A DNA stretch of 64,000 nt. Origin: Porphyra umbilicalis (lineage: Eukaryota > Rhodophyta > Bangiophyceae > Bangiales > Bangiaceae). The notes beneath the pieces were generated by a model that searched no databases, had not been told where the DNA came from, and saw only the letters and a list, made by a program, of their open reading frames with translations. Both the position numbers and the translations under genes were made by a program. Each line of letters opens with the position of its first letter. Positions within the stretch are counted from its first letter, which is position 1. The stretch is taken from NCBI GenBank assembly GCA_002049455.2, contig KV918849.1, forward strand, positions 124,001 to 188,000, written 5' to 3'. Positions 1-58,293 of this stretch are shown in pieces.

Positions 1-1573
1 AAAGGAGCCCCCGTCCTTGCCCGTGCGGCCGGCGTTTAGGCTCTCGGTTTTGGCGTCAAACGCTGCCGCCACCCGCGCTTGCACGGCGTCGGCAGCGGCC
101 GAGCCGCGGCCGGCGTCCGCCAGGTCGGCCTCCCCGACCCCCGAGATGGTGGGGAAGAATTGGCGGAGTTTGGCTTCCAGCCCCGCCCAGTTGGCCGCCT
201 CGGCCGTGCCCCCAGCGTCGGCGGTGACGTAGTTGGGCACAATCTCCGCCGCCGTATCCCGGCACCACTCGGCGTACATGGTGCCGATCGAGTCGTCGCC
301 CGCCGTCAGCAGCCGCCGCCGCTGCGAGTAGATGGCCGCCCGCTGCACCGACAGCACCTCGTCATACTCAAAGAGCTGCTTGCGGATTTCCGAGTAGTAG
401 GCCTCCACCGACGCTTGCGCGCTGTTGAGCGCATTCGTCACGGACTTGGCTTCGATGGGCGTGTCCTCGTCGACGCGGAAGGCGGTCAGCAGCTTTTGCA
501 GCTTGTCCCCGCCAAACGTTTTGAAGAGCTTGTCTTCGAGGGACACAAAGAAGCGGGACGCGCCGGAGTCGCCCTGCCGCCCCGACCGCCCGCGTAGCTG
601 GTTGTCGATCCGCCGCGACTCGTGGCGCTCCGTGCCAATCACGTAGAGGCCGCCGAGCTCCACCACCTCGTCCTGCTCCGCCGCGCAGACGGTCTTGAGT
701 TCCGACCTGGCGGCAGCCAGAGCGGCAGACAGCTGCTCAACGGCTTCAGACGAGGCGCCCGTCGACGACACGGCGTTGGCGTCAATGCCGTCGGCCGCAG
801 CGGCGGCGACCGACACGAGAGTGTCGATGCCCTCGGACGATTGCAGCGACCGAGGGGCCCCCTTAAACGCCGCCCCCGCCGCCGCGTCGAGCGCCTCCCG
901 TGTGGCTTCCGTCAAGCCGTCGCCCTCCCCGGGGATGACCGCGTCGTCAATGACGTAAAACCCAATGGGCCCCTCCCCGTCGCCCCCGTCGCCAGCCTCC
1001 TCTGCTTGAAGCGCCGTGGCCAGCCGGTTGGAGCGGCGGACGAGCGCCCGCCGCGCGAGCGCCCGCGCGTAGTACTCGGGGTTGCCCCCAAGCACAATGT
1101 CCGTGCCGCGACCGGCCATGTTGGTCGCAATGGTCACCGCGTACTTGCGGGCGGCCTGCGCGATAATCTCACCCTCCCGCTGAGCGGCGGCGGCCTTGGC
1201 GTTGAGGACCTCGTGTGGGACGCCGACTTCGGCGAGCAACTCGGACAGCTGCTCCGACGCCTCGACGGAGGTGGTGCCGAGGAGCATTGGCCGCCCCAGC
1301 GGGTGCACCCGCGCGACCTCCCGCATAACCGCCTTGTACTTGCCGGCGGGCGTCTTGAACACCGCATCCGGATAGTCCTTGCGCGCAATGGGCAGGGCGG
1401 TGGGGATGGGGACGACGCGGAGGCTGTAAATATCGCCGAGCTCCGTCGCCTCGGTCGCCGCCGTGCCCGTCATGCCTGCCAGGCGCGGGAAGAGGCGGAA
1501 AAAGGCTTGGTACGAGATGGAAGCGACGGTCGTGGCCTCATTGGCAACTTGAATTCCCTCAGCAGCTTCAACG

Positions 1574-1605
<32 letters not shown>

Positions 1606-2880
1606 TTCCATGGCGCGGCCCGTAAACTCGTCAATGATGACCACCTCCTTGTCGTCCCGCACCAGGTAGTTGGTGTCCCGCTTGAACAGTTCCTTGGCCT
1701 TGAGCGCGTTGATCAGGTAGGGCGCCCACGGGTCGGCGGGGTTGAATAGGTCCTCAATGCCGAGCGCCTTTTCGATGTCCTCATACCCCCGGTCGGTCAT
1801 GAGCACAGACTGCTCCTTGATGTTGGCGGTGTAGTGCACGCCAATGGTCAAGGCGGCGGCGACCTTGGCCGCCGCCGCGTACTTGCCGGCCGGCGCGGCG
1901 ACCGACTCGGAAATGATGAGCGGCGTGCGGGCCTCGTCAATCAGCACCGAGTCGGCCTCGTCGACGAGGCAGTAGTAAAACGGGCGCTCGAGCACAATCT
2001 CCTCGGCGGTCAACGCGAGGTTATCGCGGAGGTAATCAAAGCCGAGCTCCGAGTTGGTCACGTACGTCACGTCACACGCGTAGGCGGCGCGGCGCTCCGC
2101 GGGCGAGTCCCCCGCCTGCACCAGCCCGACGGACAAGCCGAGGGCGGCGTGGATGGGTTTCACAAACTCCGCGTCGCGGCGCGCCAGGTAGTCATTGACG
2201 GTGACGACGAGGACCGTGCCCCGCCCCGCCATGGCCGCCAGCGCCGTCGGCAGCACGGCCACGAGCGTTTTGCCCTCCCCCGTCGCCATTTCGGCCACGG
2301 CGCCGCGGTGGAGAGCCACCCCCCCCAGCAGCTGCACGTCGTACGGGCACAGGCCGACGGTGCGGTAGGCGGCTTCGCGGGCGAGCGCAAACGCTTCGCC
2401 GACGCCCGCGTCGAGGTCCGCCACGGACGCGCCGTCGGGGGTGGCGGCCGACAGGCGGGCCTTGAGGGCGGTGGCGGCGGCGAGGATGTCCGCGTCGCTC
2501 ATCTCTTCCGTTGCCTCAAAGCGGTCCGTGACCTGCGTGACCAGCTCCCCGTACTTGTCGAGCAGCCGCCCGTTGGCGGCCATGTCAATGGCGTCGCCCC
2601 CCGTCGCCGCGCCGGCGCGCTCGTCCGCGTCGGCGCCGTCGAGGGCGGCTTCTTCGGATGGCAAGCCGACCGCTTTTTTGAGCGAGTCAAAGAGGCCCAT
2701 GGTCGGGGGGGGCGCCGCCGCGAGGGGGGGGGCACGCCGCCCCACCCGCGACGGCCGGACGGTGGCCAGGCGGACGCCGGCAAAAGTGGACGTGGCCGCA
2801 GAGGCGCACGTGGAAGTGGTGGTGGCAGCGGCGACGGCGGCGCGGCCGCCCAGGGGGGCCGCGCTGACAAAGGCCGGCAT
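1..2880 (-). CDS. secA: SecA preprotein translocase ATPase, plastid-targeted, C-terminus off the window
   Basis: The minus frame is open from 2880 to the window edge (960 codons, no stop), so the C-terminus is missing. SecA is the ATPase motor that drives unfolded proteins through SecY/E; here it would act at thylakoid or inner-envelope membranes. Visible motifs: Walker A MATGEGKT at about residues 197-204, then VDEADSVLIDEARTPLIIS (DEAD box), MAGRGTDIVLGGN, and the closing helicase motif GTERHESRRIDNQLRGRSGR. The mature domain begins near GLFDSLKK (residue 61). The first 60 residues are rich in Ala, Ser, Thr and Arg, start MPAFVSAAP and contain FAGVRL, and no signal peptide precedes them. 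This is a transit peptide of the primary-plastid type with an N-terminal Phe. An alternative in-frame ATG lies at 2907. The frame stays open further upstream but has no other ATG. I am sure of the family. Whether it is SecA1 or SecA2 is open. Confidence 0.95.
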
Positions 2881-3537
2881 GGCCGCGGCCGCCGTGCGGA
2901 CGGGCATGGCGTCGACGAGGGGTGGCGGCCGGTTCGAGCAAGGCGCCGGCGGGGACGCGGGGCTCCACGCCGGCAGCAGCGTCGACAACAGGACAGACTG
3001 GCCGCGATGGCGGCCGCGATGGCGGCCTCGACGCAGACGCGCGGCGCCGCCGCCAAGTCGCGCGGCGGTGGCGGCCGGCGGTGGTGGTGGTGGCAGTAGT
3101 GGTGGTGGCAGTAGTGGCGGTGGCGGTGGCGGTGGCGGTGGCGGTGGCGGTGGCGGTGGCGGTAGCGGTGGCGGTGGCGGTGGCGGCGGTCTGCGGCACG
3201 GCCCTCTGGCGCATCTGTGGTGGGCAACGCGTCCCAGCGCTGTGCATTGCCCGCGGAGCGCCACGGAGATTGCAACCACAGACGATGGCAGTGGACTTGA
3301 TTCGCACAAATGCACACAAGTCGCCGGTCCAGTGGCTCGGATCAACTGCTCGTCGGCACGCGGACGGCGCCCCTGTGTTTTTCTCTCTTTGGTTGTTCTG
3401 CTTATGTTTGTGCTCCAGCGCCCCGCCCCCCCGCACCGCGACGCCCACCCTTGCTGCCACACCGCGGCGGTCCCCCCCCCTCCCCCTCTAGACCCTCCCC
3501 CTCTTGACCCCCCGCCCCCCCCCTGCACGGACCACCC
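2881..3537. other. Intergenic region between the divergent SecA and Nudix genes
   Basis: SecA (leftward) and Nudix (rightward) are divergent, so this stretch should hold both promoters. I see no clear TATA box. It contains the GGTGGC microsatellite and pyrimidine-rich sequence around 3360-3530 just ahead of the Nudix start. Long open frames here come from the simple repeats and are not credible genes. Confidence 0.5.
3079..3190. repeat. GGTGGC/GGT microsatellite
   Basis: Imperfect GGTGGTGGT followed by about ten GGTGGC hexamers, interrupted by single substitutions. It lies about 200 bp upstream of the SecA start. Translating it gives Val-Ala, Gly or His-Arg/Thr-Ala strings in different frames, which explains the spurious open frames. 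Confidence 0.9.
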
Positions 3538-4546
3538 ATGGGGGACCCCACCCCCCCCCCCGCCCCTACGCGCCCATCCGCGTCGGCGTGGCGGTCGTGG
3601 CGACCCGCCCCGACGGCGCGGTGCTCCTCGGCCGCCGCCTGTCCCGCCACGGCGGTGGTTCGTGGGGGCTCCCCGGCGGGCACCTCGAGCCGGGCGAGTC
3701 GTTTGACGCCTGCGCCCGCCGGGAGACGCTCGAAGAGACGGGTGCGTGCGTGGGCAGGCCGGGGGCGTGCCGCGCGCGGCCGCCCGTGGGCGTGTCGCGC
3801 GGGCGGGTGCCGCCGTGGCCCGCCTCGTGGGCGGTGGGGGGTGGGGGCGCGCATCTAACCGTTGCCGCATGATGGCCAATGTTGACCGTGTACCGCTGCG
3901 GTGCGTTTTTTTTCTCGTTTTTTTTTTTTTTTTTGCTTGGTCTGCTCGGGTCCGTTGCGGTCAGGCGTGCGCCTCGCCCCGCCGCTCGTGGCGCTGATCA
4001 CGGCGACCAACAACCTCTTCCCCGCTGAAGGGAAACACTCGGTCACCATTTTCGTGCGCGCCGCCGTCGCGCCGGGCGCCACGCCGCAGGTACGTTGTCC
4101 GTGTCGGCCGCCGCACGGGCGTGGCCCCGCCCGTCGGCCGCCGAGGGAGGGAGCGCGGCGCGGCGCCCGGTCCGCGCGTCTGGGCTGCAAACACTCACGC
4201 GCGTCGTGCGTTGCACCAACCCCTCCCCGTTGCGGCGTGTTGCCACATCCCGCCCTTTTTTGCTGGTGGTTTTGTTTGCCTCCCCTGCCCCCGCGTGCGG
4301 CTCGCTCCCCCCCCGCACCGCGGCGGCGCGTGCGCCGCCCGCCCGCCCGCGCCCGCTGCCGCGCGTCGGCTGCCCCCGCAGGTGTGCGAGCCGACCAAGG
4401 CGGCGGAGTGGGTGTGGGCGCCGTGGTTGGCCCTCGGGACGGGCGCCTACGCGCCGCTCTTCCAGCCGCTGCAGGTGCTCTACGACGGTGGCTACACGCC
4501 GGGGGGGGGGGGCGCCCCCCCTCCCCCGCCCCCACCCCAAAATTAA
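3538..4546 (+). CDS. Nudix hydrolase, NUDT15/NUDX1-like, three exons
   Basis: Inferred exons are 3538-3741, 3965-4089 and 4382-4546, all with GT-AG junctions and matching phases. Nudix enzymes hydrolyse nucleoside diphosphates linked to another moiety, such as oxidised or modified NTPs. Exon 1 holds the Nudix box [10 protein letters not shown]...RRETLEETG, with the metal-binding REtlEE core. Exon 2 encodes [20 protein letters not shown] and exon 3 AAEWVWAPW...PLFQPLQVL, both as in NUDT15 and plant NUDX1-like proteins. Splicing exon 1 to exon 2 restores E-T-G-V-R-L. Odd point: the only good ATG (3538) is out of frame with the Nudix box by one base across a run of 11 C (3551-3561); a twelfth C would fix it. 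An upstream exon is the alternative. The tail is Gly/Pro-rich and ends in TAA. Substrate unknown. Confidence 0.85.
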
Positions 4547-9480: not shown

Positions 9481-11051
9481 CTTGCTCGTGCTTCGTCGAT
9501 CCTGTTGCCTGCAGGCACTTGCATGACACCTTCGTCGTCACCGTGCGGTTGCTGTCTTTCTGTGGGGGGACACAATATGGCGGAAGCTGATGAAGGCCAG
9601 ACGTAAGTCAGGTCTGGGTGTGTTGCGAGTGCAGTAGGGCGCAATACAGGTGGGGAAGGGGTGGTGGGAGAAGACATCCTCGATAAATGTCATCATGAGA
9701 AAAACGTATTCACCCCTCCCCCCTTCGCTATGGCCGCACATGTCCACTGAAACGGCCCATGCAACCCCATACCACTTGGCATCGGAGATGTGTCAAGAAG
9801 GTCCGAAGAGGAATCCTCATAGTGACGACTGTAGGTGTCAGTTCGGGGCGCTTCTGCGGAAAAATGGCAGCTACGGAGTGCCTCTAGAGTATTCTGGAGA
9901 CGGAGTAGCAAAAACGCTGGCGAGAGAGAAGATAGGCCACGAGCTCTACCTGGTGAGCTTTTCTGCCTATAAGAGCAGACCCACCAATGTCGCATTCCGC
10001 AAATATTGGAGCCACGTGTCTAACGTGGCTAAACGTGGCAGCGTATGCAGAAAGCATCACACACAGCAATCCGTTCTATGCGGATCCGTCCACAAACGGA
10101 GGGTATCGACTTGTAAAACCGATAATATTCCACGATAAGTCCTTTCGAATAAAAATAATCAGGGTACATAGGCCTTTCGTAATCTGGGGCCCCGGTCTCC
10201 ATAGAGGGCCTCGATGTGGGCGTCGAGGCCATATTTCGAACGGATCCGAACCAATTTAGAGCCAATCTCATCGCTGGCACGACGTGCTGGAGGACTCGGA
10301 CGACCGCTGCGGTCACCACGTGTAGCCCCAATGATCCCGAATGATCGCATCTCGTTCTTGTCCGGAAGCGAGGGACGTCGCAGGCGGCGTGATTGTGCGG
10401 GAAACGTAGCCGCAGCACACGCGCAGGGGATTGAGGGCCTACAGGCGATCTGAAACGGCCGTAAGGACCTGCGAATGCTCGACCTCGAGAGTGAGCCACG
10501 CTGTTCAAATGTATTCACACCACCTCGCGCGTGCCCAGGCTCAGAAAACGAGGAGTGGAAGAGTCACGGCCGAGGAGGAGTGGAAGGAGAGTCATGGCCC
10601 GAGTCGAGCGCACACGGCGACCACGTGGCTCGCTCACAGCCATGCAGCGCTTGTTCCCACGATGTACACTGGACTGAGGCCCCGTTAGGGCCCACGGGGC
10701 CAACGAGGGTGGGAGCTCGCATGATCGGGCCGGACCCGCACTCGCGGGCCTGATTGGAGGAGATACACTGTGAGGTGGCCCCGTCAGGCGTGGTGGGGCT
10801 GGTGTCGCCGGGCTGCGCCCGCGTAAACGGGCCTGATTTGAGGGGGGGGGTGGGGGCCGCGCCACTGCCCTCCCCATTTCGTCACCCGTGGCCCAGCCGA
10901 CGGTCGCGACCGCACCCTCTCCCCACCGCACCCACCGTCGTGGCGACCGCTCCCGACCACCGTCGTCGTGCCCCCCACGTGCATTCACACCGTCGTGCTC
11001 ACCGTCTTCTTCCCCCTGTGCATTTTGTGGCCCATACCGGGCCCGCTCCCC
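9481..11051. other. Gene-poor stretch inside the 14.2-kb element
   Basis: I see no convincing coding sequence. Composition drops towards 50% GC. Short open frames here lack domains. The last 300 bases are the GC-rich leader ahead of the nuclease gene. Confidence 0.5.
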
Positions 11052-12575
11052 ATGGATGCTGTGGCGGCTGCCGATGGCTCATTTTACGACGATTTGGACG
11101 TGGCCGTGGTGCTTGGGTATGGGGCTGGCCTGCGCATCCGGAGGGCACTGCTGACCGTGCGCGGGCGGGTGGAGAAGCTCCCGTTTGGTGGTTCTCGCCC
11201 TGGCCGACGGCCGAACCGGGACCGCAACTTTGACCTGGGCGCGCACTCTATCATGCGTGACTACTTTGGGGTCGGCGGGGAGCCGCCCGTCTACAGCGAG
11301 CGAGATTTTGAGAAGCGCAATCGCATGCCGCGAGCAATTTTCAAGCGGCTCTACACGGCCGTGCGCAATGAGCCGTGGTGGCGACGCTCGATTAACGCGA
11401 CTGGGCGGCTGCAGTCGTACCCTATCCAGAAGCTGCTGGCGGCGTTGCGGGTGTTGGGCTACGGGGAGCCGTACGACCGTCCCGACGAGTATTGCCGCCT
11501 GTCGCCGTCTACCATCGCGGAGGCAACCCGGCGCCTCACCAACCTCATCGTCGACAAGTGGGAGGCGACGTACCTGCGCCGCCCGACCGAAGACGAACTC
11601 AAGCACATCCTCACCCGCAACGCGGCCCGTGGCATGCCGGGCTGCATCGGTTCTATTGACTGCACCCACTGGCAGTGGCTCAAGTGCCCCAAGGCTCTGG
11701 CCGGCCAGTACCATGACCGCAAGGGTAAGCGCTCCGTGGTGGTTGAGAGCATCTGCGATGAGGACACGTACATCTGGCACTTTTTTATTGGGGCTCCTGG
11801 CAGCTACAACGACATGAACGTGCTGGCGTGTTCCCCCCTGATGCTTGACGTGAACGCGGGTGTGTGGCCGCCGCGGAACATCAACTATACACTGAACGGC
11901 CGTACCCGTCGCTTGCTTTATTACACGGCCGACCAAGGATATCCCCGGTATGCTCTGTTTGCAATGACCCACCCCAACCCGGTCACCCCCAAGCGGCGCG
12001 TCTACAACAGGCTGCAGCAAGCTGTCCGGAAAGACGCTGAGCGCTTGTACGCCGTCATGCCGTCGCGCTTCAACATCATTCTACGACCAGCACGATTCAC
12101 GACGGTGTTGCGGATGATTAACACCGGCAAGGCGGTGGCCATCTTGCACAACATGGCCATTGAGTGTACGCGAGGCGACTTTTTGGCCCATCGGCGCATG
12201 AACGCGGATGCAGAGGTGCGACAAGCTGTTTCTGAGCTCCAAGGGCAGCGCCAAGGACCGGACAACCTGAGTTTGGGCTGTGGGAGCAATCCAGGGCGTC
12301 CTGCTTCTGCCCGCGCTGAGAATGAGCACCAACCGGCGTTTTTCATTGACGATGGACCAAGGGGCCCGGGTATCTGGGGGCCACCGCAGCCCGTGGAGTC
12401 CCTAGACGGCACGGTGGAGACCGGCACAGACCAAGACGTGGTCCCTGGCTCCCTACAGTACACCGACGGGGCCGAGTGCGAGGCCAAGGACCGTGACGCT
12501 CACTTTGCGCTTCTCCACGACCTCTCTGAGCACATCTTTGCGGACAGGGGCCGCCTACTGTTGCCCTACTCTTGA
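11052..12575 (+). CDS. PIF/Harbinger-type DDE transposase nuclease
   Basis: 507 residues from ATG 11052. The frame is open upstream to 10968, but this Met leads the conserved part. It is the nuclease subunit of PIF/Harbinger transposons (DDE_Tnp_4 family), which cuts at 3-bp TA-rich targets with the help of a Myb/SANT partner. Candidate catalytic residues: D203 in GSIDCTHWQW, D254 in GAPGSYNDMNVL, D294 in YYTADQGYP and E330 in RKDAERLYAVMPSRFNI. A helix-turn-helix-like region precedes them (about 120-175: KLLAALRVLGYG ... SPSTIAEATRRL). The C-terminal 130 residues are acidic, low in complexity and element-specific. The frame is intact with no internal stop, so the protein may still be active. 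It converges with the minus-strand Myb-like gene. Confidence 0.93.
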   Translation: MDAVAAADGSFYDDLDVAVVLGYGAGLRIRRALLTVRGRVEKLPFGGSRPGRRPNRDRNFDLGAHSIMRDYFGVGGEPPVYSERDFEKRNRMPRAIFKRLYTAVRNEPWWRRSINATGRLQSYPIQKLLAALRVLGYGEPYDRPDEYCRLSPSTIAEATRRLTNLIVDKWEATYLRRPTEDELKHILTRNAARGMPGCIGSIDCTHWQWLKCPKALAGQYHDRKGKRSVVVESICDEDTYIWHFFIGAPGSYNDMNVLACSPLMLDVNAGVWPPRNINYTLNGRTRRLLYYTADQGYPRYALFAMTHPNPVTPKRRVYNRLQQAVRKDAERLYAVMPSRFNIILRPARFTTVLRMINTGKAVAILHNMAIECTRGDFLAHRRMNADAEVRQAVSELQGQRQGPDNLSLGCGSNPGRPASARAENEHQPAFFIDDGPRGPGIWGPPQPVESLDGTVETGTDQDVVPGSLQYTDGAECEAKDRDAHFALLHDLSEHIFADRGRLLLPYS

Positions 12576-47643: not shown

Positions 47644-49163
47644 TCAGTCGAAACCGAACTCGTACCGCTGAAACTGCCTGTGGCGGCTGTGCCGCGAGGC
47701 CACCATGCGCTGGTTCCAAAACGCGGCCAGCACGCGGCGGGTCTCCACTGCGGTCGGCACGCCGCGGCCACCCCCGCCGCTGCCGCCGCCGCCGCCGCCG
47801 CCACCGCTGCCGCCGCCCGCGGGCGCGTCGGCCAGGAGGTCCGCTTCTGTGACCCCCCCGAGGCGCACCCGACACGCACAGTCGGTGGCCTTGGACCCAT
47901 AGTCCCCCGCCCACCCCCGATCATCCGCCCCCCGCAGGCAAATCACCACGTACCGCGCGGCAGGGGCAGGCCCGAGCTCGTGCGTCGCGGGCATCCAACA
48001 GTCGGCGGGGGCGGGCACCCGCCCCGTAGTGCGGTATTGCAGCTCCCCACACGCCCCGTCGTACAGCGCCGCTTCAAGCGTGTACCACGACGAGCAGTCG
48101 GTGCGGGCGGAAAAGGCGGCGGCCACGGACAAGACGACCTCGCCCGGCCGGCGCACGACAGCGGATAGGTCCACCACCTGCGCCATGACGCACGTGATAT
48201 AGGTGCTCACAAAGTTGCGGCGCACCCCCGGCGACAGCGGTACGGCCGAGGCCTCGGTAGACCAGGCTTGGCCGAGAGCCCGCAACACATGCCAGCCGGC
48301 CGTGCCCGCCGCCGCCGACGGGTTGACGAGCAGGTTGCGCGACGTGGCGGGGGCGGCGGCGGCGGCGGCGGCGCCCCCGCGCCCGCCGTCTTGCCCGCTC
48401 GACGTGCACGCGCCACACGCGTACAGCTGCTCGCACGCCGGGTCGGGCCCGTTGCGGTGGGTGCTCCGCCCCGCGGGCAGCGGTTGCACACACGCGGGCC
48501 GCCCCGCGCAGGCCACGGACACCGTCTCGGCGGGCGCGGCGGCCAGGCGCGCGTGGCACGGCGTGCAATAGTGGGTGCGCCCAAAGCATACGTGCGTGGC
48601 GGGGCTGCAGCACAGGCGACACTTCCAAACGTGGTACGGCGCGTGCGGCGGCGCCGCGCACGCTGCCGCGGTGCCGGCGGTCGGGGCGGCAGCGCCGGCG
48701 GCGCCCCCCCCCGCGCCCCCCCCCCCGCGCCCTGCCGCACGACACACGCGGGGCACACCCGCTCGTCGGGCGGCAGCGCGTCGCGGTCGTGCTCCCGCGC
48801 GCACGCGGCGGTCCCCCCGAAAAAGGGGGCCTCGCACGCGGAGCAGAGGTAAAAGGCCGCCTCGCGGCGCGCCGCGTCGAGGTCCGCGTCGGGCCCGAGG
48901 CGCTCGACAAGCAGGCGGTCCACCGCCTGCCGCACCGCCGCCGGCACCGCGGCCACGTCGCGGAGGGCGGGGTGCTCGGCCCACGCGCCGCACTTGGCGC
49001 ACGCGGTGCCGGCAAAGGCGAGGCGGCGGGCGGGGTCGGGCCGCGCGTGCGTCAACTGCGCCCGCACGCAGGCCGTGTGCCACACGTGGCCGCAGGGGAG
49101 GGTGATCACGGGGGCCTCGGCCAGGGGGGACAGGCAGATGGCGCAGTCGTCGGCGGTGTCGTT
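47644..49163 (-). CDS. RING + tandem-cysteine (MYCBP2/RCR-type) E3 ligase fused to an F-box-associated (FBA) domain
   Basis: From 49163 leftwards: RING (CAIC ... LPCGHVWHTAC ... CAKC), a helical linker, then the tandem-cysteine module YLCSACEAPFFGGTAAC ... VCPACVVRQ ... YHVWKCRLCCSPATHVCFGRT-HYCTPCH ... ACGACTSS. It aligns with MYCBP2 from memory: first relay Cys (C4520) = Cys of GGTAAC (48801-48803), esterification Cys (C4572) = Cys of HVCFG (48586-48588), with the following F and H of CFGRTHYCTPCH also kept. In MYCBP2 these relay ubiquitin onto threonine. The C-terminus is FBA-like: NLLVNPSAA, FVSTYITCVMAQVVDL, DCSSWYTLEAAL, GADDRGWAGDYGSKATD, as in FBXO2/NCCRP1 glycan-binding domains. The frame breaks in a run of 11 C (48716-48726) between the Cys halves; one more base joins it. 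A Gly-rich spacer precedes the end at 47644. The start is unresolved: the Met at 49221 is out of phase across three C runs. Confidence 0.82.
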
Positions 49164-50429
49164 AAAAGGGGGGGGGGCGGGGGGGAGGGCGGGGGGAAGG
49201 AGGTGCCTGGGGGCGGCTCATCGTGGAAGGGGCCAGGGGGATGGGGGTGGCAGCGCGAGGGGGAAGCGGCAGACGCAGCAGTGTGAGGGCGACGTCTTCA
49301 GCAGGGCACGAGGACGTGGCGGGGGGAAGTGGCATGGAAGCACAGCGCAACCGGTGCGGGGCGCGCTCTCAAACAACCCACGTGTGACCTCCTGCGAGGC
49401 CAAGCGCCCAGACCCCGACCCCGCCTCACCTGGACGTTTCCAGGGACGATGGACATGCATGCGCGGGTACACCCCCTTACACGGCGGTCGGACGCGTGCC
49501 ATCACGTGGCAGTCGTCAGTAGACGAAAAAAACTGAGGCCAGCGCGCGCACCACATGTGGCTCCATGAGGGAGTAAGCTGACCTCTGTTTCTTTCCCATG
49601 TATGCATACGGCACCCAGGGGTGCGGAACAGTCGGCCGTCGCCAACGTAAGGGCCGGAAGAAAAAGACGACGAAAAAACAAGTAGCTGCGGCCGATACGA
49701 GGCACCCACACGAAGACGAGGGTCTGACCCGACTGGCAGCGGTCGAGCAATGACTTGCCTGCCAGTGAAGGCTGACCCCGTGGCGTACAGTACGACCAGC
49801 AATGAAGAGAGCTGGGCACAGTCTCATGTTTTTGGGACATGAACTTTCGGACGTCCAATAGGAGAGCTCCTTTCATCTATCGACTCAGGACGCTCCTAAG
49901 TCTTTGACTCAGAAATGGTCCTGTCGACCAGCAATTTACCAGTAAACTTCGTCCAGGCGGACGACTATCTACAACAACTTTATGTGCACTTGTTTTGCGC
50001 ACTTGTTTCGCGAGAGCGGCTGGGCGCTTGGCCGCCGTGGTCGTAGCCGCCGCGACGCGGCCCCTTCGTACACTCCCAGCAGCGCAGTGGGGCTTAAACC
50101 GTGTACCTTACGGATCTGCTGATTCCGTGTTACAGGCTGTTGCAGGATCTCCACAGTCTGCCAAATGGCTGCTGGTCGGGCCATTTTGTGCTGGCAGCCT
50201 GCTGGTCTGCAAGCTTCTGGCAGATTAGCATGCAGAATTTCTGAAGGAACTCCGCTCATGCACTGTGTTTTCACACGGTCTCTGCAACATACGTTCAGTT
50301 TACCTGCTCACATCTCTGCTGGGAAGGTGCAGAAATCGTGCTTTTGTCGTCATCTGCGGCAGAACATGTGTGCGAAAGTGGGCAGAGACCGTGCTGGGCC
50401 GGTGCTTAGCCAGATTCCAGGAGGGCGAA
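49164..50429. other. Intergenic stretch
   Basis: 49164-49200 is G-rich leader of the E3 gene. I see nothing else that looks like a gene, and no paired termini. Confidence 0.4.
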
Positions 50430-55494: not shown

Positions 55495-57501
55495 CTCCGG
55501 CAACAGCTCAACGCACCCACGCAAGAGACCGACGCTCTATGTGTCTGTTGCTCGACGTGCTTGCTACGACCCTTGCTTGGACTGCACTTCATCCGCTGCA
55601 GCTCTGGGTGTGATGCGTGTATCTACTTGTCTTTGTTTGGATAGCACCGACATTGGCAACAGCCATCCAAATAACAAACACGTGCAGGCGCTTCCGCCAA
55701 CAACCCGTACTTGGTCACCATGCTACTCTCGCACTCGGCTGCATTCGAGCCGCTCCGAACTTGTCGCTCGACAGGCAGTGAGACAGCCACCGGCGGGAGC
55801 GGCAGGTGCGAACACCTGTCTCGACCACGTTCCGTTTCTACGTCCATCGCTGCCGCTAGCTCATTTCACACACCGCCGACCCACCCCCCCACCTTGGCAT
55901 GTCTCCCGGTCAAGACAAACACAGCCGGAAGAGCTACTCCTCACTCCGAATCCACACCGTCCGCCGCCACAACCCCGAGACGCCCGCCTTGGCGGCAGCC
56001 ACAGCGCCACCATCTCCCGAATCCCCAAAACACGTGGACGCGCACCGGCAGCGCAACTTGCCGCCTCGCGGGGGGCGCCTACGGCAGCAACAAAAACATC
56101 ACCGCCGCCAACAGGCGGAGCACCACGCACATGGGGGACGGGTAGGCGGTACCACTCGGCACTGGTGCCGCGGGTGGGAGAGGGAATGGACCGCTGCCCA
56201 CGCGGTGATCACTACCGAGTAAAGGTTGTGGGGGACGTGGCGGTGGCTGGGGAGGAGGCGTGCCATGGTGGCCGCGTAGAAGGTGGACACGTCAGAAGCA
56301 GGGATGGCGTGCTGGTACCGGGAGTAAGAGCCGTCTGTGGTGTCGACGCAGCCGTGGCCGTCGGCCGCGCACAGGTGGTCCAATACAACTTCGTGGCCGC
56401 CATTGCCACGGTCAGCGTCAAAGGGGGCGGCACCGGAAGGCGAAATGTCAGCCAAGCGCGTCAAACGGGACAGAGAAAGGGAGAGGTCCACAACAGCTGC
56501 TCAGGAGGCACGCCCAGGAGGGTTTCCTCAGACAAGTTGAGCGCACGTCGCGTGGCCATGGAAGTCATGTCAACGATACGGAGCGTAAGAGGGCAGCTGT
56601 CACCAAGAGGCCATGGCGTCGCTGCGTCGGGGGACGGAGGACCCGCTCAGATGTATCTCACGAAAGTGCCTGTCGTCCCGCCCCGTGATAGGCAAGTGAT
56701 CGGCGCGACTCAAGTCCACTCGACCGGAGCCCGGGGCGATATTCCTTTCATCCTATAGAGCGCGTAGCCCGCTGTTAGGGATCCTATCAAGCGTACAGAG
56801 GAATAGCTGGCTTCCAGGACGCTGTGGTAGTCTTGATAGTGTTCGTAAGGAGAAAATAGAGGACCCTTCGGCGTCTTGCGTGCTCGGACTGCAAAAGCTA
56901 GCAAAATGGGAACGCTCTGGGGACAGTTTCAGCCTTTACCCAAATCGCTTCCCAGTGCATTGTCAGCAGCTGAAGGGGAGCTCCGAATGCGCCGATGCCA
57001 CCGACAATCGGGAGAGTCGACCACCACACCATCGTGGAGACCTCCACACCAACGTCACCACCGTCGTGGATACCACCTTTGTGGCGACCACCATCGTCCT
57101 GACGACCGAGGTGTGCCAGGGCGGTCGCTACTCCGTACCCAGACTGCCCGGGCGGTCCCCATCCCTCCATTCCCTGCCGTTGTGGGTACAGTACGTTGTT
57201 GCGGCACGTTCATCTCGCTGGTTTTGGTAAATCGGTTTGTCGACGTGTCCAACGTCCCGGTGGTGGTTGTGCTGCTGTTGTGGGAACATCCGATTGTGGC
57301 GATTCCTCAAGCACTCCTCTGGCTGTGGGCGGCAGAGTGGCCGGCCGTTTTTTGTTTGGTGGAGTGCGGGGGGGCCCAGGTGGTCTCCACGTTCTTTTGA
57401 ACGCGTGCTAATTGTCAATACGACGCTTCTGCATCTGCACGAGTTTTGTGACTGCTTCTTCCTTCCCGCTGGGCTGCCTTCCAATACAGGAGTCGGGAGG
57501 C
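55495..57501. other. Stretch without a recognised gene
   Basis: Open frames are short and overlap in several phases without domain features. The last 30 bases include an acceptor-like CCAATACAG just before the methyltransferase ATG. Confidence 0.4.
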
Positions 57502-58293
57502 ATGGAGGACAGTGCGCCAGACCTTTTGGTGACGTGGCGCAAATGGTCCGATGAACGGCGGGCGGCTCGACTCGCGACTGTTTGGCAGCCGCAGCCGCTG
57601 GCTGTGCCCGTCAATGGCGTCGTCGCTCGCTGCCGTTTGGCGCGAGAGACCGCCGTCCGCCGTTTGGGCAGTTCCAGCGGTGGGGAGTACCACGAGGTGT
57701 CGTCCATGTTGGAGACGGACTTTTCCGCGGTTTGTGCTCCTGACCAATGCGCCCCCCGCACCTACGACGTCCTTGTCGTGGATCCTCCCTGGGCGGATGA
57801 GGGCGGCGTCTTCGTCGTCGACGACCTCCGTCGCATCCCGTTCAAGGCCTTGGTGCCCAACGGCGTGAGTTGTGTATGGGTTCACGGCGCCATATTTGCC
57901 GCGACTGTGCAGTGTATGTGCGACCTGGGCTTTCGACTCATTGACAGCTTTTGCTGGGTGCTGCACGACCAGCATCACTCGGAGGTTGTGCAGCGGGTGG
58001 TGCCTGGGAGCGACTTGCGAGAGAGCCACGTCACTCTGCTGGTCTTCCAAGATGGTATCGAGAGAGAGGGCACGGTACCCCTCACACCGCAGACGGTCGA
58101 CGTGACGATCGAGGACCAGATGTGGAGGCGTTCACGGGTCGACCTCATGTCTTCCTACGTGCGTGTGAAGCCGGACTGCGCGTACGATGCCGTCCGACTC
58201 ATGGCGGCGGCCTCTCCATGGACTCGGCTGTTGGAGCTGTGGGGACCTCCTGGGGAGCCGCGCTTCGGGTGGACTGTTTTTGTGGAGCGGTGA
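57502..58293 (+). CDS. MT-A70-family adenine N6-methyltransferase-like protein
   Basis: 263 residues from ATG 57502, frame intact. MT-A70 enzymes (METTL3/METTL4 group) methylate N6 of adenine in RNA or DNA using S-adenosylmethionine. Seen here: YDVLVVDPPWADEGG with the catalytic D-P-P-W at residues 94-97, then FKALVPNGVSCVWVHGA, CDLGFRLIDSFCWVLHD, SHVTLLVFQDG, SSYVRVKPDCAYDAVRLM and LLELWGPPGEPRFGWTVF. These follow the family order: DPPW, hydrophobic strand with W, G-F/Y and W-V, a glycine turn, K-P-D-x-x-Y and E-L-F/W...G-W. It is short and lacks METTL3's N-terminal zinc fingers. An upstream exon is possible. Substrate (mRNA, DNA of the element, or host DNA) unknown. Confidence 0.8.
   Translation: MEDSAPDLLVTWRKWSDERRAARLATVWQPQPLAVPVNGVVARCRLARETAVRRLGSSSGGEYHEVSSMLETDFSAVCAPDQCAPRTYDVLVVDPPWADEGGVFVVDDLRRIPFKALVPNGVSCVWVHGAIFAATVQCMCDLGFRLIDSFCWVLHDQHHSEVVQRVVPGSDLRESHVTLLVFQDGIEREGTVPLTPQTVDVTIEDQMWRRSRVDLMSSYVRVKPDCAYDAVRLMAAASPWTRLLELWGPPGEPRFGWTVFVER

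Follow-up and report, generated by a model that had tools for sequence, protein, structure and literature searches.

The window analysed here is a stretch of 64,000 nucleotides from the red alga Porphyra umbilicalis (contig KV918849.1, positions 124,001 to 188,000). Its minus strand encodes, within 47,644–49,221, three domains in succession: RING, MYCBP2-type tandem-cysteine (TC) and FBA (Table 1). The locus is that of NCBI protein BU14_0166s0036 (P0001), which matches its two translated frames at 96 and 100%: one minus-strand frame encodes the RING and the first TC half, and a second one encodes the second TC half and the FBA. The likely N-terminus, MSRPQAPPSPRPPP, lies in a third frame and resembles the N-terminus of the relative P0093 (MSHPEEPPLSPHPPF); the NCBI model starts at 49502 instead. 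Across the whole P. umbilicalis assembly (83.8 Mb, 665 contigs) there was one FBA match, and protein searches of the genome found no second TC/FBA gene beyond the locus itself, the residual matches falling, by position, on the Gly-rich tail or the FBA end (six) and on the RING part (eight).

Table 1. Features of the RING-TC-FBA locus, in window coordinates
Feature	Position	Strand	Basis or remark
Likely N-terminus MSRPQAPPSPRPPP...	49180..49221	(-)	Third frame, just upstream of RING
G homopolymer tracts, 10 and 7 bases	49168..49185 (49168-49177, 49179-49185)	(-)	Frame change nearby
RING finger, CAIC ... CAKC	48990..49145	(-)	Pfam; alignment to MYCBP2 RING
First TC half	48744..48869	(-)	Relay Cys 1 48801-48803; presumed-triad Glu 48762-48764
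C homopolymer tracts, 9 and 11 bases	48704..48726 (48704-48712, 48716-48726)	(-)	Gly/Ala-rich loop between TC zinc ligands
Stretch skipped by BU14_0166s0036, 218 bases, GT...AG	48526..48743	(-)	Model-to-window comparison
Second TC half, zinc ligands up to CGAC	48406..48660	(-)	MYCBP2 match; codon check
Relay Cys 2	48586-48588	(-)	Codon check
Phe	48583-48585	(-)	Codon check
Tyr for F4578	48568-48570	(-)	Codon check
His	48553-48555	(-)	Codon check
FBA domain, SRNLLVNP ... ACRVRL	47860..48342	(-)	PF04300 E 7.6e-15
C-terminal tail, charged after a Gly-rich part, without hydrophobic anchor	47644..47859	(-)	Stop codon 47644-47646

The window protein matched zf-RING_11 (E 5.4e-9) and zf-RING_2 (E 7.5e-7) in the RING, both above the Pfam cut-offs, and PF04300 in the FBA (55.6 bits against a cut-off of 32.4), with no Pfam match to an F-box. 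Its TC domain was matched by no Pfam model, and an NCBIfam search gave nothing useful; the model search proposed in the initial annotation thus succeeded for the RING and the FBA, while the TC was found via MYCBP2 structures. A RING+TC query of 235 aa, joined from two relatives (the head of P0001 and P0002) and searched against all PDB sequences, had MYCBP2 (6t7f, 5o6c) as its sole match at E≤1e-5, with E 2.7e-19. The pieces of the window itself also reached MYCBP2 in the PDB, at E 8.7e-10 for RING/TC-1, where the RING contributes part of the score, and at E 1.3e-4 for TC-2/FBA. The window FBA piece matched FBXO44 (2.1e-10), FBXO2 (5.4e-10 to 9.2e-9) and FBXO6 (7.4e-6), its other PDB matches being mostly to the Gly-rich tail. 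With a family profile of 52 members, MYCBP2 was matched at E 2.2e-37 over the RING and most of the TC, and FBXO2 at 1.2e-24. Profile-profile comparison of the family with 20 MYCBP2-type sequences gave a probability of 100 and E 6.9e-39, with the relay cysteines and the His in register; this alignment and the best PDB stretch both end before the last TC zinc site. At the level of sequence, the RING-TC-FBA order, the homology and the residue conservation in the window are established. Pfam, PDB and alignment matches thereby bear out the initial claim of this order in one short protein that has no giant MYCBP2 N-terminus. Both relay cysteines, whose alignment to MYCBP2 had been set as the test, do align, and they are present in the window codons together with the claimed His and one active-site Phe, as is the Glu.

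The reading frame of the locus is broken twice. The frames on either side of the C-tract loop differ, so that RING/TC-1 and TC-2/FBA are read separately and the frame change that had been proposed at 48716-48726 is real; a second change lies near the G tracts between the likely start and the RING. Both sit at G/C homopolymers 7 to 11 bases long, and the RING, TC and FBA frames are open in themselves. Two intron solutions were considered and rejected: i) in the TC loop, 0 GT-AG pairs of at least 20 bases left the CPAC ligands intact and led back into the second frame ahead of the following zinc ligands; ii) the NCBI intron (48526-48743) would delete conserved catalytic sequence. BU14_0166s0036 omits this second stretch and therefore is without relay Cys 2 and the catalytic His; the Thr codon just below it (48523-48525) is present in P0001. 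In the relative P0002 (469 aa, from a metagenome), which is without the first part of the RING but open from there on, a single frame crosses the TC loop and reaches the FBA end. Of the 115/121 members in which the loop was measured, P0002 has 39 aa and the other 114 have 16 to 24 aa. Two further Porphyra-type relatives are disturbed at the same GC-rich loop, P0003 beginning just past it and P0093 going astray after it. Slippage in GC runs during sequencing is thus the likely cause of the break, with a real slip signal at the loop as a conceivable alternative.

The broken frame could also mean that the locus is an artefact or a decayed gene, i.e., a chance join of neighbours or a pseudogene, and the two frame changes together with the disturbed P0003 and P0093 would suit such a history. 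We regard it as highly improbable: the same domain order occurs in single open frames and transcripts of diatoms and Purpureofilum, which excludes an artefact for the family, P0002 is open through the TC loop, and the domain frames of the window are open with both changes at homopolymer runs. The idea that RING/TC and FBA belong to separate transcripts is likewise contradicted, for the relatives, by their single transcripts and open frames.

The wider family was collected with two profiles. The first, which combined the RING-TC of these sequences with that of human MYCBP2, gave 506 proteins; among the best 120 the named ones were mostly MYCBP2 or MYCBP2-like, with P0116 as a protein carrying RING and FBA. 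The second, built on the full-length fusion with a permitted protein length of 271-863, found 213 proteins, of which the best 120 all carry an FBA in the precomputed Pfam column, a count that is partly by design since the search profile contains the FBA; the TC was verified by alignment, there being no Pfam model for it. Within these best 120, the named members are the diatoms Cyclotella, Thalassiosira, Stephanocyclus, Skeletonema, Fragilaria, Cylindrotheca, Seminavis and Epithemia and the red alga Purpureofilum, Porphyra itself having been found by other searches; lengths are mostly 340-650 aa inside the search range. The Purpureofilum member answers the check, set at the outset, for the same fusion in other red algae. 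Six sequences from transcript collections (P0126, P0127, P0144, P0154, P0164 and P0217) hold RING and FBA in single sequences. A Pfam scan of 52 sampled members found FBA in 52/52, zf-RING_11 in 51/52 and an F-box in none. One of the 52, P0170 from Thalassiosira profunda, has an extra FKBP-type prolyl isomerase domain, which could be a gene-model join.

No viral relatives appeared in an IMG/VR scan with P0116, nor prokaryotic ones in the prokaryote contigs scanned with the family alignment A6. Automatic annotation has already picked up pieces of the fusion, as the Seminavis member is annotated as protein ligase MYCBP2 and some JGI entries as "F-box associated region/RING-like zinc finger". We found no description of a RING-TC-FBA fusion in open-licence PMC papers, judged by titles and abstract starts and partly through loose searches. 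The suggestion of a new single-chain architecture is in agreement with this, but the architecture is not peculiar to the Porphyra gene, as it is shared by a whole family of diatom and red-algal proteins.

The MYCBP2/PHR family (Highwire, RPM-1) is the founding RCR E3, with proteins of about 4,600 aa. For MYCBP2 we take C4520 and C4572 to be the relay cysteines, which are not zinc ligands, E4534 (three before C4537) to be the triad Glu, and F4573/F4578/F4586 to form the hydrophobic Thr pocket; Cys 4417 is not known to have a role. The accounts of MYCBP2 consulted describe an RCR active site with a Cys-His-Glu triad (PMC9527308) and a relay in which ubiquitin passes from the E2 to the first and then the second relay cysteine before forming an ester with Thr/Ser (PMC9527308, PMC10959754, PMC13270118).

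For the residue counts, human MYCBP2 was aligned with 121 members, namely the best 120 of 213 and P0001. Relay Cys 1 is kept in 120/121, the remaining row, P0003, being a gap as it starts downstream; the same count, 120/121, holds for relay Cys 2 and for the His, the remaining row here being P0001, whose model is without that stretch. The first RING ligand pair is kept in all 109 of the 121 members in which it is covered, and C4600, H4617, C4631 and C4634 are kept in 121/121. The acidic triad position is D in 59, E in 35 and another residue in 23 of the 117 members scored (94/117 acidic; 4/121 unscored). For MYCBP2-type proteins the corresponding count is 91 E and 8 D among 100 scored, with 16 unscored. 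The pocket positions have shifted: F4573 is Tyr in 111/121 and Phe in 3/121, F4578 is Phe in 110/121, and F4586 is Asn in 105/121. The window reads Cys, Glu, Cys, Phe, Tyr, His across the active-site series, i.e., with Phe at F4573 and Tyr at F4578. The Tyr and Asn replacements at F4573 and F4586 mean that the Thr pocket of the family differs from that of MYCBP2, and its specificity may therefore differ too.

That both cysteines and the His persist over so great a distance makes the relay likely. The opposing view, that the protein is an ordinary lysine-directed RING ligase whose TC is merely a structural zinc module, would accommodate the variable acidic triad position and Thr pocket. It is improbable in our judgement, since both relay cysteines are kept in every covering row at deep divergence, whereas the C4417 position has changed to Leu, Ile or Val.

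In FBXO2 the residues reported to stack on chitobiose are Phe177, Tyr279 and Trp280 (PMC4603797). The W280 position is kept in 119/121 family members, Y279 is F/Y in 108/121 and F177 is F/Y in 109/121, so that 97/121 have F/Y-F/Y-W at all three; the FBA start was located by pattern in 88/121 rows and the last 220 aa were used in the other 33, and some rows are therefore without the FBA start. The window reads Y-G-W, with Gly at the Y279 position, where P0002 and P0003 have Cys; the K281 position is Ala in Porphyra. Mutational data reported for FBXO2 show that T215P weakens sugar binding and that A217C alone does not (PMC4603797). The T215 position is occupied by Thr in 107 of 121 members, by Ser in 6 and by Pro in 1, with Thr in the window, and the A217 position by Cys in 120/121; the family is thus mostly of the sugar-binding type at 215, the position that mattered in FBXO2.

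On the other hand, the FBXO2 residue N159, to which T215 bonds, has no counterpart in the alignment (a gap in 121/121 members), and FBXO44, as described in the sources consulted, has the aromatic sugar residues yet binds no sugar (PMC4603797, PMC6389600), so that such residues alone make no sugar pocket. Hence the FBA of an RCR-type ligase could bind a peptide or another non-sugar ligand, as in FBXO44; we consider this less likely than a glycan ligand, with the missing N159, the Gly or Cys at Y279 in the window, P0002 and P0003, and the slightly higher FBXO44 score of the window FBA piece in its favour. Against it are the aromatic triad in most members and the prevalence of Thr over the FBXO44-type Pro at 215. 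The PDB score ranking does not discriminate between sugar and non-sugar binding: the window FBA piece puts FBXO44 slightly above FBXO2, the family profile puts FBXO2 above FBXO44, and FBXO6, a sugar binder, scores below FBXO44 with both.

Part of the family ends in a hydrophobic segment, defined as a mean Kyte-Doolittle value of at least 1.8 over 17 aa within the last 60 residues, which is a hydropathy threshold and not a trained predictor. Such a C-terminal segment occurs in 43/121 members, and one elsewhere in the chain in 2/121. In 110 members the tail after the FBA was cut out: 42 of the 59 tails with at least 40 aa contain the segment, whereas 200 shuffles gave it in 2.76 tails on average and in 8 at most, and none of the 51 shorter tails contains it. 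The segment is absent from P0001 (Porphyra), P0002, P0003 and P0217. In the 48-row tree described below, the 11 hydrophobic-tail rows among 32 fusion rows all fall in one clade of 20 (support 100/99), which contains the named diatoms and within which the tail needs at least 5 changes; thus either the tail comes and goes or the gene models miss it.

Two unrooted trees were built, a quick one of 64 rows, in which two Porphyra-type rows were badly cut, and a careful one of 48 rows, which is the better. In both, the fusion proteins and the MYCBP2-type proteins lie on opposite sides of a very long, fully supported branch (100/100 in the careful tree). Inheritance through the red-algal plastid endosymbiosis would fit an occurrence in red algae and diatoms; we offer it only tentatively, because Porphyra and Purpureofilum do not form a group on the tree.

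Taken as a whole, the domain order and the conserved residues suggest that the protein is probably a single-chain RCR-type ubiquitin ligase which chooses its substrates, plausibly N-glycoproteins, by its FBA and yields a Ser/Thr ester product; the relay chemistry, the ester product, the glycan ligand and the cell location are what we infer from these features. The RING would bind a ubiquitin-loaded E2, from which ubiquitin would move to relay Cys 1 and then to relay Cys 2; the latter, with the His and the acidic residue, would pass it to a Thr/Ser hydroxyl as an ester bond, the acceptor being Thr, Ser or, given the altered pocket, possibly another hydroxyl. The C-terminal FBA would bring the substrate in place of the MYCBP2 scaffold, and because it resides in the same chain as the E3, no F-box/Skp1/cullin docking would be needed. 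The most likely substrates would be N-glycoproteins that have left the ER, met plausibly at the cytosolic side of a membrane, and in the diatom subset the hydrophobic tail may hold the enzyme on that cytosolic face. Such a tail fits the cytosol-facing membrane site that an ERAD ligase needs; other membranes fit as well. The glycan-reading and ERAD role suggested in the initial annotation is a hypothesis, and in Porphyra one of the three sugar-stacking aromatics is replaced by Gly.

A more specific form of this proposal, which we put forward as speculative and rather doubtful, is that the FBA grips the N-glycan core of a retro-translocated glycoprotein while the TC relay oxyesterifies the Thr/Ser of the sequon (N-X-S/T) or a hydroxyl of the glycan stub. 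If so, red algae and diatoms would possess a lysine-independent ERAD branch built on a sugar-guided esterifying ligase, and one protein, membrane-anchored in some diatoms, would do the job of SCF-FBS2 plus ARIH1 in animals.

Compared with the MYCBP2/PHR proteins, the fusion shares the succession of RING and TC, both relay cysteines, the catalytic His, a mostly acidic residue and the same zinc-ligand pattern, but it is much shorter, has an FBA in place of the giant N-terminus, mostly carries Tyr for F4573 and stands on a separate side of the tree. A MYCBP2/PHR ortholog would have the giant scaffold N-terminus and a place in the animal clade; the fusion lacks the former and lies outside the latter. 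NCCRP1 has an FBA without an F-box and neither RING nor TC; the fusion resembles it in the first respect and adds RING and TC. With FBXO2/FBXO6/FBXO27 (Fbs) it shares the FBA by sequence, including the stacking aromatics in most members, but it is without an F-box and has its own E3 module in the same chain.

As reported for animals, SCF-FBS2 with ARIH1 places oxyester ubiquitin on the GlcNAc C6 hydroxyl and on sequon Ser/Thr of Nrf1 (PMC13270118), and FBA-guided hydroxyl ubiquitination thus has a precedent with separate proteins. FBA-directed hydroxyl ubiquitination is the outcome predicted for the fusion, although in the animal system lectin and hydroxyl-active E3 are distinct proteins of a cullin complex, whereas the fusion is one chain and RCR rather than RBR. 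Because an animal FBA protein has been linked to ubiquitin oxyesters close to N-glycans (PMC13270118), the fusion allows a direct test of sugar-guided, lysine-free ubiquitination.

In the literature consulted, MYCBP2 is the single protein for which RCR chemistry is described. A compact family of this kind, spanning red algae and diatoms, would show the relay to be older or more mobile than MYCBP2 alone suggests. It would also give small enzymes for structural and mechanistic work, and an RCR ligase whose recognition domain is built in and has a known fold.

Other short proteins, P0095 (Mercenaria), P0083 and P0089, join a Macro domain (PF01661) to RING-TC. Like the fusion, they are short and combine RING-TC with another recognition domain; they differ in that the Macro domain is N-terminal and in lying on the MYCBP2 side of the tree. 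They would form a further small RCR-like architecture, which, as a guess, is possibly aimed at ADP-ribosylated targets.

Elsewhere in the window, an MT-A70-like match at 57412-58290 on the plus strand falls slightly below its cut-off (22.2 versus 23.9 bits). A transposase-like open frame lies at 10842-12572 on the plus strand (Plant_tran PF04827, E 1.1e-51), and positions 1-3960 of the minus strand hold a 1,320 aa open frame with SecA domains (SecA_DEAD, E 2.6e-101) that continues past the window edge.
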